Below, piece after piece: positions 18,899 through 27,437 of a stretch of DNA of 64,000 nt. Origin of the DNA: Amycolatopsis lexingtonensis (GTDB lineage: Bacteria; Actinomycetota; Actinomycetes; Mycobacteriales; Pseudonocardiaceae); NCBI RefSeq assembly GCF_014873755.1, contig NZ_JADBEG010000001.1, forward strand, positions 7,290,501 through 7,354,500, written 5' to 3'. Below the pieces are notes generated by a model, which saw only the letters and a program-made list of their open reading frames with translations, was not told the origin of the DNA and did no database searches. The translations under genes were made by a program, and so were the position numbers. The stretch's first letter is position 1, and the number at the start of each line of letters is the position of its first letter.

Positions 18899-19378
18899 TC
18901 AGGAGCAGCACCCCTCGGGCTGGGTCGCCTTGTCGACCTGGCCGGTCTCGGCGTCGGGCGTGCAACACGTGGCCGGGGCGGTGAGGGCGGCACTGTCGGA
19001 GCCGAAGGTCTGCGAGTCGGCCTTGACCGTGTAGACCTCCCACGGCTCCTGGCCGGGGCCGTGCACCCACACCTTGTCCTGCACGGCGTAGCAGCAGGTG
19101 GTGTTGTCCTCGGTCAGCGTTTCCAGACCCTCGCCGGTGAGGCGCTTGCCGGCCTCGCTGACCTGGTCGATCGACTCGACCTCGACGCCGAGGTGGTCCA
19201 TGACGGTCGCCTGGCCGGGCTCGCCCTCCAGGAGCACGAGCTTGAGCGCGGGCTCGGCGATGGCGAAGTTCGCGTACCCCGGACGGAGCTTGGCCGGCTC
19301 GGTGCCGAAGAGCTTCGAGTAGAAGTCGATCGAGCCTTCGAGGTCCCCGACCCGCAGTGCGAGCTGTACCCGTGACAT
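18899..19378 (-). CDS. arsI: ArsI/CadI family metalloenzyme (organoarsenical/cadmium-induced VOC protein)
   Basis: 159 residues. The first ~120 form a VOC fold beginning MSRVQLALRVGDLEGSIDFY, close to mycobacterial CadI. The diagnostic pair is TTCCYAVQDKVWVHGPG (Cys95-Cys96), which in ArsI proteins binds trivalent arsenic before an Fe(II) dioxygenase cleaves the C-As bond. His62 (MDHLGVEVESID) and Glu114 (WEVYTV) are likely metal ligands. The tail has two more CC pairs (ATCCTP, EGCCS). It is divergent from an ArsR gene, as in M. tuberculosis. CadI proteins are also cadmium-induced, so the physiological metal is not certain. Confidence 0.85.
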   Translation of the reverse strand: MSRVQLALRVGDLEGSIDFYSKLFGTEPAKLRPGYANFAIAEPALKLVLLEGEPGQATVMDHLGVEVESIDQVSEAGKRLTGEGLETLTEDNTTCCYAVQDKVWVHGPGQEPWEVYTVKADSQTFGSDSAALTAPATCCTPDAETGQVDKATQPEGCCS

Positions 19379-19461: not shown

Positions 19462-19824
19462 ATGCCGAAACAGCTGCCGATCGTCGCGCTGGACGCCTGC
19501 TGCTCCCCGCTCTCCCGCGAACCGCTGAACGAGGGCCAGGCCGTCGAACTGTCGAAGCTGTTCAAGGCGATGGCCGACCCGGTCCGCCTGCGGCTGCTGT
19601 CGCTGATCGCCTCCCACGGCGGCGGCGAGGCGTGCGTGTGCGACCTGACCGACGCGTTCGACCTGACCGGCCCGACCATCTCCCACCACCTGAAGGTGCT
19701 GCGCGAGTCCGGCCTGATCACCGGCGAACGGCGTGGGACCTGGGTCTACTACCGCGTCCACCCCGAGGTGCTGGCCCGCCTGTCGGCCGTGCTCGTCCCT
19801 GGTGACAGTCCCGTTCCGGGGTGA
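19462..19824 (+). CDS. arsR: ArsR/SmtB-family metalloregulatory repressor
   Basis: 120 residues. Winged-helix core: LFKAMADPVRLRLLSLIA, CVCDLTDAFDLTGPTISHH (recognition helix), GLITGERRGTWVYYRV. Likely metal or arsenite ligands are the N-terminal DACCSP pair and the ACVCDL pair. It should release the arsI/arsR divergent promoter when As(III), Sb(III) or Cd(II) binds. ATG start. Confidence 0.9.
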   Translation: MPKQLPIVALDACCSPLSREPLNEGQAVELSKLFKAMADPVRLRLLSLIASHGGGEACVCDLTDAFDLTGPTISHHLKVLRESGLITGERRGTWVYYRVHPEVLARLSAVLVPGDSPVPG

Positions 19825-19852
19825 TCCCTCGCGCCGGCTCTCTTTATCGTCT

Positions 19853-19868
19853 ATCGTCGATTAACGAT
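19853..19868. promoter_or_regulatory. candidate operator in front of second arsR-arsM unit
   Basis: ATCGT-CGATTA-ACGAT inverted repeat, preceded by another ATCGT at 19846-19850. It lies just upstream of the GTG start chosen for the second ArsR, a usual place for autoregulation. Confidence 0.4.
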
Positions 19869-19881
19869 GAAGGGAAGTGCT

Positions 19882-20214
19882 GTGCTGGACCGTGCTACCG
19901 CTGAGACCTACGCCGGTTGGTTCCGGGCGCTGGCCGACCCGACCCGGGTGCAGATCCTCAACCTGCTGGCCCCGACCGGCGCCCCGATGACGGTCGGGCA
20001 GATCGTCGACCAGGTCGACGTCGGCCAGTCCACCGTGTCCGCCCACCTGAAGATCCTCACCGAAGCCCGGTTCGTGCTCGCCGAAGCACGCGGCACGTCC
20101 CGGCTCTACCAGGTCAACGAGCGCTGCGTGTCGTGCTTCCCGACCGCCGCCGACGTGGTGATGGGCCGCGGAGTCCTGCCGTTCACGGCCGTCACCTGCG
20201 AGACCACCCGATGA
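19882..20214 (+). CDS. second ArsR-family repressor
   Basis: About 110 residues: AGWFRALADPTRVQILNLLA, VGQIVDQVDVGQSTVSAHL, FVLAEARGTSRLYQVN, then a C-terminal RCVSCFPTAADVV in which the CxxC-like pair is the probable metalloid site. This type is common in front of arsM. I chose GTG 19882 because GAAGGGA lies 7 nt upstream. An in-frame ATG at 19867 would add five residues but overlaps the inverted repeat and has no ribosome-binding site. Its TGA overlaps the ATG of the next gene. Confidence 0.85.
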   Translation: MLDRATAETYAGWFRALADPTRVQILNLLAPTGAPMTVGQIVDQVDVGQSTVSAHLKILTEARFVLAEARGTSRLYQVNERCVSCFPTAADVVMGRGVLPFTAVTCETTR

Positions 20215-21413
20215 ACCCCGACGCCGTTCGCGAGCGCTATGCCGCCGCTGCCCGCCGGGCGCTGGACGGCGAGGGAACCGGTCTTCTAGCCGGCGAAGGA
20301 GACGCCGAACGGCTCGGCGCCGTCCACTACACGGGCGAAGAAATCCCGGCCGAGGTGTCGGCGGCCAGCCTGGGATGCGGGAACCCCCTGGCCGTCGCCG
20401 ACCTGCACCCCGGGGAAACGGTGCTCGACCTCGGTTCCGGCGGCGGCCTCGACGTCCTGCTCTCGGCCCGCCGCGTCGGCCCCACCGGCCGCGCCATCGG
20501 CCTGGACATGACCGACGAAATGCTCGCCCTCGCCCGCCGCCACGCCGAGCAGGCCGACGTGGGCAACGTCGAGTTCGTCAAAGGCACGATCGAGGACATC
20601 CCGCTGCCGGCCGCTTCGGTCGATGTGGTCATTTCCAACTGCGTCATCGCGTTATCGCCGGACAAGCCGGCCGTGTTCGCCGAAATCGCCCGCGTCCTGC
20701 GCCCCGGCGGCCGCCTCGGCATCACCGACATCCTCGCCGACGACACCCTCACCGACGCCGAACGCACGGACGCGGTCGAATGCCTCAGTGGCGCGCTCAC
20801 GGCCTCGCGCTACCGGGCTCTCCTCCGCGACGCCGGGCTGGCCGGAATCGACATCCGCGTCACCCACGAAGTCGGCGACAAACTGCACTCGGCGATCATC
20901 CGCGCCGACCGCCCGGCGCCGGTCCGCATCGACACGATGACGTCCGACCACGGTGGAGAGGTGTTGACGATCTACCAAGCCGGGCTCGACGGCGGGCACG
21001 CCAGCTTCGAAACCACGGCGCCCGACTGGGCCACCTGGGACGCCACCCATCTCCCCGACCACCGCCTGGTGGCCCTGGATCCCGCCGGACGCGTACTCGG
21101 CTGGACCGCGGTCTCCGCCGTTTCTTCTCGGTGCGTGTATGCCGGTGTCGTCGAGCACAGCGTTTACGTCCACCCGAACGCTCAGGGCCGGGGTATCGGC
21201 CGCGCATTGCTGAGGGCGCTTGTCGCCTCGACCGAGGCGGCCGGGATCTGGACGATTCAGAGCGGCATCTTCCCCGAGAACACCGCGAGCAGGGCACTTC
21301 ACCGTGGCGCCGGCTTCCGCGAAGTAGGTACCCGCGAACGAATCGGCCGGCATCACGGCCAGTGGCGCGACGTCGTGATGATCGAACGGCGAACGCAGCG
21401 CCTGCGATCTTGA
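20211..21413 (+). CDS. arsM: fusion: arsenite methyltransferase (ArsM) + ArsN1-like GNAT acetyltransferase
   Basis: 400 residues with two domains. Residues 1-~235 are ArsM: SAM motif [13 protein letters not shown] (72-84) and the three arsenic-binding cysteines Cys56 (SLGCGNPLA), Cys144 ([12 protein letters not shown]) and Cys191 (ECLSGAL). Residues ~245-395 are a GNAT domain resembling phosphinothricin/arsinothricin acetyltransferases: [32 protein letters not shown] (acetyl-CoA loop 325-330), [19 protein letters not shown] and [11 protein letters not shown]. ArsM methylates As(III); ArsN1 acetylates arsinothricin. The frame is continuous with no sign of an error. Start overlaps the arsR stop (ATGA). 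Substrate of the GNAT half is inferred. Confidence 0.88.
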
Positions 21414-22763: not shown

Positions 22764-25319
<2,556 letters not shown>

Positions 25320-25370
25320 GGGGTCCTTCTCGGGTGCGGGTGGTCCAGGCGGGACAAGAGCGGGGGACGC

Positions 25371-27437
<2,067 letters not shown>

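Follow-up and report, generated by a model that had tools for sequence, protein, structure and literature searches.

An ArsM-type methyltransferase joined to an ArsN1-related acetyltransferase in Amycolatopsis lexingtonensis, a candidate modular enzyme of arsenic detoxification

Described relatives and the fusion gene

Proteins that unite the products of two arsenic (ars) genes have been described before. ArsN fused with ArsC or ArsD is mentioned in the accessible text of PMC6205960, which cites Chauhan 2009, an ArsR-ArsM fusion appears in that of PMC10190100, and the NCBIfam families ArsM_AhpD and ArsM_DUF2284 are selenoproteins that hold ArsM in other fusions. A 64,000-nucleotide stretch of the Amycolatopsis lexingtonensis genome (the window, whose numbering is used throughout) carries a gene that likewise places arsenic functions in one protein, an ArsM-type arsenite methyltransferase followed by a GNAT acetyltransferase related to ArsN1. 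ArsM and ArsN are each already known from fusions, and the joining of ars genes is a known kind of architecture, of which the ArsM-GNAT pairing is a variant; no description of an ArsM-ArsN fusion was found in the open-access literature, and in databases these proteins already carry the label GNAT family or arsenite methyltransferase. The gene and its parts are:

20211..21413, + strand: ArsM-GNAT fusion gene, 400 residues (translation, Pfam and NCBIfam families, AlphaFold2 model)
20211..20909, + strand: ArsM-type arsenite methyltransferase half, residues 1-233 (NF008823 score; the best PDB matches are ArsM)
20910..20936, + strand: short linker, residues 234-242 (homologue spacing, junction comparison)
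20937..21410, + strand: GNAT half, residues 243-400 (clade adjoining ArsN1 family A on the tree)

The gene is a single open frame from ATG to TGA, in which Pfam and NCBIfam place a methyltransferase (residues 4-225) and a GNAT domain (249-393). In an AlphaFold2 model (mean predicted local distance difference test score 85.3) the first part matches solved ArsM structures, while residues from about 237 to 400 match structures of phosphinothricin acetyltransferase (PAT) and ArsN. All 120 listed homologues, counting the query, have both halves in the same order, and their domain envelopes are 9-20 residues apart; the list holds the best 120 of 7998 candidates sharing most words, favours full-length fusions and is not a frequency. 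One open frame spans the junction in each of the nine fused Amycolatopsis neighbourhoods compared with the window. The ratio of non-synonymous to synonymous substitution rates, computed with these nine (out of 15 fused neighbourhoods, loci L193-L207), is 0.14-0.23 for the ArsM half and 0.17-0.27 for the GNAT half, which indicates purifying selection on both.

The fusion is a genuine two-domain protein, for which chance or a frameshift can be excluded. An artefact of assembly or sequencing that joined two genes has a negligible probability, as the same architecture recurs in many separate assemblies, both halves are present in every listed homologue, and the junction is unbroken in nine of nine relatives. 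An earlier, sequence-only reading of this DNA had claimed an uninterrupted frame with an ArsM-type and a GNAT half; the open frame, the two folds and the family matches bear this out. A count of fused architectures, which it had proposed, gave 14 of the 80 genomes in a genus sample (16 rows) in addition to the listed homologues, and the frameshift or stop between the domains, which it had considered, was seen in none of the nine junctions.

With the ArsM/AS3MT proteins of solved structure (PDB 4fr0, 5evj, 8xt7) the first half shares its fold, the S-adenosylmethionine (SAM) motif and the three arsenic cysteines:

20376..20378, + strand: C56, equivalent to C72 of solved ArsM (alignment; Cys in 117 of 120 listed, 3 gaps)
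20421..20453, + strand: residues 71-81, which we take to be the SAM-binding motif (read from the translation)
20640..20642, + strand: C144, equivalent to C174 of solved ArsM (alignment; Cys in 120 of 120 listed)
20781..20783, + strand: C191, equivalent to the third arsenic cysteine of solved ArsM (alignment; Cys in 119 of 120 listed)

The third arsenic cysteine of solved ArsM is presumably C224, with which the title of a PDB entry for C224A agrees. Nine of the 11 positions of the SAM-binding motif are invariant among 17 fusions. The protein was tested for the three arsenic cysteines and for an ArsM fold with its SAM site, and the presence of both upholds the former claim of a full ArsM half; ArsM activity of the half is likely.

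Of several possible explanations for this protein we favour, with moderate confidence, a modular arsenic-detoxification enzyme in which ArsM is combined with an independent organoarsenical N-acetyltransferase and which is made together with the regulator ArsR2. Arsenicals would release ArsR2 from an operator-like dyad, upon which the fusion would be made. The ArsM half would methylate trivalent arsenic with SAM via C56, C144 and C191, and the GNAT half would independently use acetyl-CoA to N-acetylate an organoarsenical amino acid met in soil, arsinothricin or a relative; the halves may have different substrates. As the GNAT appears to be a modular domain joined to whichever ars gene is its neighbour, arsM here and an arsC-like or arsR gene elsewhere, the fusion would mainly fix co-expression and amount. 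The architecture is well established, as is its setting among arsenic genes; an organoarsenical amine as the substrate of the GNAT half is our best guess, with no more than moderate support.

The acetyltransferase clade and its partners

On a tree of 102 GNAT domains (midpoint root; the rows are hits over 150 bits from selected loci together with reference sets, sequences below 110 residues and duplicates being dropped) the fused GNAT lies within an actinobacterial clade of 44 rows with support 100/99, 27 of them fused to ArsM and 17 others. The adjoining clade consists of four members of ArsN1 family A (NF040503), the nearest named acetyltransferase family on the tree, and six rows below its cut-off; these ten are supported at 99/78 and their union with the fusion clade at 99/89. 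The four family A rows form a group of their own (100/99), with the fusion GNAT outside it. The ArsN1 of Pseudomonas putida (PDB 5jtf, 5wph, 6m7g) stands across the tree, grouping with ArsN1 family B (ArsN1b) and with PAT on the same side, apart from the fusion clade.

According to the accessible text of PMC6465285, arsinothricin is a substrate of the tested P. putida ArsN1, whose substrate contacts are Ile31, Phe33, Arg75, Arg77, Ala124 and Val158. In our alignment, from which the residues of that enzyme were taken, the positions of Phe33, Arg77, Tyr80 and Val158 are kept in the fused GNAT, and the general-base position is a Glu, as in PAT:

21129..21131, + strand: R307, equivalent to substrate residue Arg77 of P. 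putida ArsN1 (R in 119 of 120 listed; role from the accessible text of PMC6465285)
21153..21155, + strand: E315, at the general-base position, Glu88 in ShPAT and Asp85 in P. putida ArsN1 (E in 119 of 120 listed; role from the same text)

Catalytic residues are kept in both halves of the fusion. Activity on arsinothricin is a possible property of the fusion clade or of family A.

The GNAT of this clade has other partners than ArsM. It is joined to an ArsC-like domain in two genomes (L222, L224) and to an ArsR domain in four (L207 gene 7, L221, L128, L250), all six fusions being supported by Pfam, and it also occurs free. The ArsC-like parts match LMWPc and stay below the cut-offs of the arsenate reductase models, as does the separate ArsC of L194; on the ArsR model NF033788 (cut-off 55) the ArsR part of L221 reaches 54.5 bits and that of L207 57.4. 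The cluster in Amycolatopsis has the order arsI-arsR1-acr3-arsC-arsR2-arsM(-GNAT), with ACR3 above its cut-off in L194, and in several relatives the arsR2-fusion unit sits upstream of arsI-arsR1-acr3. In L218-L220, where arsR2 and arsM are missing, a free GNAT directly follows the arsC-like gene; in L221, which has no arsM, the GNAT is joined to ArsR2; and in L222, which has neither arsR2 nor arsM, it is joined to the ArsC-like gene. Saccharopolyspora endophytica (L128) has a separate arsM followed by an ArsR-GNAT gene. Gene starts in the relatives' loci were set by a simple codon-score caller. A rule that would put the GNAT at the end of every unit was considered and rejected, since in L304 it precedes arsC and in the relatives with an upstream arsR2-fusion unit it precedes arsI-arsR1-acr3. 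Of 28 loci examined in which the GNAT is free or has a partner other than ArsM, 20 have clear ars genes within the fetched stretch.

The presence of the same GNAT on ArsC-like and ArsR proteins, or on its own, argues against the special link between methylation and acetylation that the sequence-only reading had envisaged, and favours a domain that attaches to adjacent ars genes over a special partner of methylation. Within Amycolatopsis, moreover, ArsM is found both with and without the GNAT. True channelling, where one molecule (for example trivalent hydroxyarsinothricin) is As-methylated by the ArsM half and N-acetylated by the GNAT half, seems to us improbable. The biosynthetic ArsM methylates the amino-acid arsenical hydroxyarsinothricin (accessible text of PMC8552651), so that one molecule could meet both sites, and fused forms make up two groups on the ArsM tree described below; however, quite apart from the exchange of partners and the unfused Amycolatopsis ArsMs, the fusion scores 121.8 on the biosynthetic ArsM model, which has a cut-off of 500. 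Independent activities of the two halves are more likely than channelling.

Family limits and rival readings

Several observations weigh against the proposed pairing of ArsM with an organoarsenical acetyltransferase. The best model of the ArsM half, the 'arsenite methyltransferase' family NF008823, matches residues 4-225 with 247.5 bits; its cut-off of 263 bits is reached neither by the whole protein nor by the half alone (249.4 bits), and the match ends at model position 236-238 of 272. For these reasons we call the half ArsM-type, on the strength of residues and modelled fold, and not a member of the curated NF008823 subfamily. Unlike ArsM/AS3MT it is short (about 233 residues) and continues into a C-terminal GNAT. 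It also lacks the fourth, N-terminal cysteine with which most ArsMs are described in the accessible text of PMC8552651; a cysteine ahead of the first motif is found in 47 of the 114 listed proteins with a locatable motif and is absent here, so the fourth cysteine is not fixed in this group.

The GNAT half, too, stays below the curated models. It scores 131.7 bits (whole protein) or 134.8 bits (half alone) on ArsN1 family A, where the cut-off is 170, and 74.8-78.2 bits on family B, where it is 210; the PAT model gives 45.7-48.3 bits against a cut-off of 300. The family A score is weak evidence, because other GNATs of the phylum, whatever their arsenic context, reach up to 152.3 bits on this model and are likewise below its cut-off. 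Three substrate-contact positions of P. putida ArsN1 are changed, the position of Ile31 being Ala in 120 of 120 listed fusions and the other two being:

21123..21125, + strand: S305, at the substrate contact Arg75 of P. putida ArsN1 (S in 119 of 120 listed)
21270..21272, + strand: F354, at Ala124 of P. putida ArsN1 (F in 120 of 120 listed)

Ala124 belongs to the residues that surround carbon CE of arsinothricin (accessible text of PMC6465285). The family A rows have Phe at the Ala124 position in four of four cases and Ser at the Arg75 position in two of four, and the ShPAT and ArsN1b rows likewise vary at some of the contact positions. By sequence, then, the GNAT half is a clade of its own beside ArsN1 family A and is not ArsN1 by the curated models; the earlier view that its motifs are closest to PAT and ArsN1 holds at the level of the superfamily and fails at that of the two ArsN1 families.

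For eight of the 28 GNATs that are free or have another partner than ArsM, the fetched stretch shows no clear ars gene (L223, L225, L294, L297, L298, L302, L303 and L306; the ArsR match in L298 reaches just 33%). Also, the cluster in the window includes an enzyme that could work in the opposite direction to ArsM:

18899..19378, - strand: arsI/cadI-type metalloenzyme, divergent (NF041414, 204.4 bits, cut-off 116)

We take the role of ArsI to be that of a carbon-arsenic lyase, and such a lyase, if it acted on the same compound as the adjoining ArsM, would undo the methylation. Finally, arsN has been linked to arsenate resistance with arsC or arsD (accessible text of PMC12607644), which does not fit a role confined to organoarsenicals.

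The last point bears on a reading in which the GNAT half aids resistance to inorganic arsenic by a new route, as reported for the first arsN. The ArsC-like fusions in the same GNAT clade would agree with it, but inorganic arsenic has no amine to acetylate and the P. putida enzyme that was tested acts on arsinothricin (accessible text of PMC6465285), and we consider this reading very improbable. It is unlikely, although less so, that the GNAT acts on phosphinothricin, methionine sulfoximine, a metabolite or a general amine, its place in ars clusters being regulatory or historical. Against this stand the fusion of the GNAT to three kinds of arsenic protein, the ars genes near 20 of the 28 GNATs outside ArsM fusions, and the position of Arg77, kept here but occupied by Phe or Trp in PA4866 and in its close relatives 1yr0, 4j3g and 4mbu.

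The genome of A. lexingtonensis has further genes that touch on this question. A free ArsN1b-like gene (contig C1:2062102-2062569, L292:6100-6615) scores 200.3 bits against the cut-off of 210, and no ars gene of the kinds looked for lies beside it. It could handle arsinothricin or phosphinothricin, which would leave the fused GNAT freer for another substrate. A second ars locus (contig C1, about 988,652-990,751, L291:6653-8752) contains a fusion of a helix-turn-helix domain with an ArsC-like domain (LMWPc), an ArsC-like gene with an N-terminal domain of its own, and a MIP channel. A search of the genome for an ACR3 pump found none, an empty answer that alone proves little.

Distribution, the ars cluster and its meaning

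In a class sample, nine of 394 genomes including A. lexingtonensis carry the fusion at E 1e-85 or better, the other eight all belonging to one family (f103). In the order sample (298 genomes) and the phylum sample (396) a full-length row was present in A. lexingtonensis alone among the matches listed; two phylum rows (G319 and G316), whose matches cross stop codons and extend to about residue 300, were left out of the fusion count. Among the named holders are Microbispora catharanthi, Streptomyces albidus, Actinomadura nitritigenes and Nonomuraea montanisoli. On an ArsM tree of 77 rows (selected loci; hits below 150 bits, rows below 180 residues and duplicates dropped) the fused forms fall into a group of 11 rows, all fused, and a second group of 16 fused and 10 unfused rows. 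The fused label needs eight changes on this tree, at least five of them forced by starred branches, and five on the GNAT tree, at least four of them forced, so that one single fusion event is not borne out; there may have been repeated loss after one fusion. At L216 the domain was lost, as a GNAT remnant (L216:8632-8724; 31 residues, 74%) lies directly behind an unfused ArsM, and at the nine other of ten unfused ArsM loci tblastn gave no GNAT hit beside ArsM at E 1 or better. One fusion (L194:8670-9848) has a GNAT match that ends early, at residue 359 of 392, and the same genome has a second, full copy.

The setting of the fusion is an ars gene cluster, which apart from arsI comprises:

19462..19824, + strand: arsR1, ArsR-family regulator, Rv2640c-like below that model's cut-off (generic NF033788 over cut-off)
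19846..19868, + strand: 23-bp operator-like dyad upstream of arsR2, ATCGTCTATCGTCGATTAACGAT (conservation across loci)
19882..20214, + strand: arsR2, ArsR-family regulator, 110 residues, or 115 if the start is 19867 (HTH_5; NF033788 over cut-off)

The stop of arsR2 overlaps the start of the fusion gene by 4 nt (ATGA), and the same overlap occurs in 13 of 15 fused Amycolatopsis loci. ArsR2 has at its C-terminal end a recurring CVxCFP motif, from which we infer a two-thiol metalloid site. The dyad is found with at most one mismatch in 28 of the 41 neighbourhoods L193-L233 (L193-L206, L209-L216, L221, L226, L228, L231-L233) and in 33 of the 66 loci scanned in all (L113 and L233 being one place), and 20 Markov copies of the window gave no match. 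The 13 neighbourhoods that lack the dyad showed no full-length arsR2 immediately ahead of the ArsM or GNAT gene. The dyad is not invariably present with arsR2, as no site with three or fewer mismatches accompanies the arsR2 match (68%) of L301; L296 and L300 have sites with two mismatches. A promoter scan found none.

The flanks of the cluster differ by species, the adjoining housekeeping genes being gyrA and gyrB in the window (22764-27413) and groEL in L202 (window, L193, L197, L202 and L209 compared), which suggests that the cluster has moved between sites. In L211, L212 and L216 a cluster with ArsM alone adjoins a glutamine synthetase gene (GlnA over cut-off, L211). Glutamine synthetase is the target of arsinothricin; this neighbourhood may be only an insertion site. 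In L207, L227 and L230 the fusion lies beside genes for a PmbA/TldD-like protein, a flavin adenine dinucleotide (FAD) oxidoreductase, an unassigned protein, aminopeptidase N, an ArsR and a CobW GTPase (the family tests were made with the copies in L207).

These neighbours also bear on the suggestion, made from the sequence, that the fusion is a tailoring enzyme, here of an arsenical natural-product pathway in a producer. Actinomycetes do produce organoarsenicals, such as bisenarsan (accessible text of PMC12159101). However, the neighbours examined in the window are arsI, the two arsR genes and, among housekeeping genes, gyrA and gyrB, and the genome has no match over cut-off to NF040538, the ArsM model of arsinothricin biosynthesis, a search for which 14 control genomes gave no positive either and which did not extend to ArsL or bsnMN. 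The suggestion thus found no support, and we give it a very small probability.

The results of the current study define a clade of acetyltransferases that is fused to three kinds of arsenic protein, which is good evidence for a role in arsenic biology of proteins that databases mostly call GNAT family. The dyad of ArsR2 offers a handle on which arsenical switches the fusion on, and the clade is a candidate for asking which compound ArsN1 family A and this neighbouring group give protection from, arsinothricin or another organoarsenical. A bolder interpretation, to which we assign a low probability, is that the clade is a third type of arsenic acetyltransferase beside ArsN1 and ArsN2, directed at an actinomycete organoarsenical other than arsinothricin, a molecule that both halves of the fusion would share. 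If true, it would be a sign of an as yet undiscovered arsenical antibiotic in soil.
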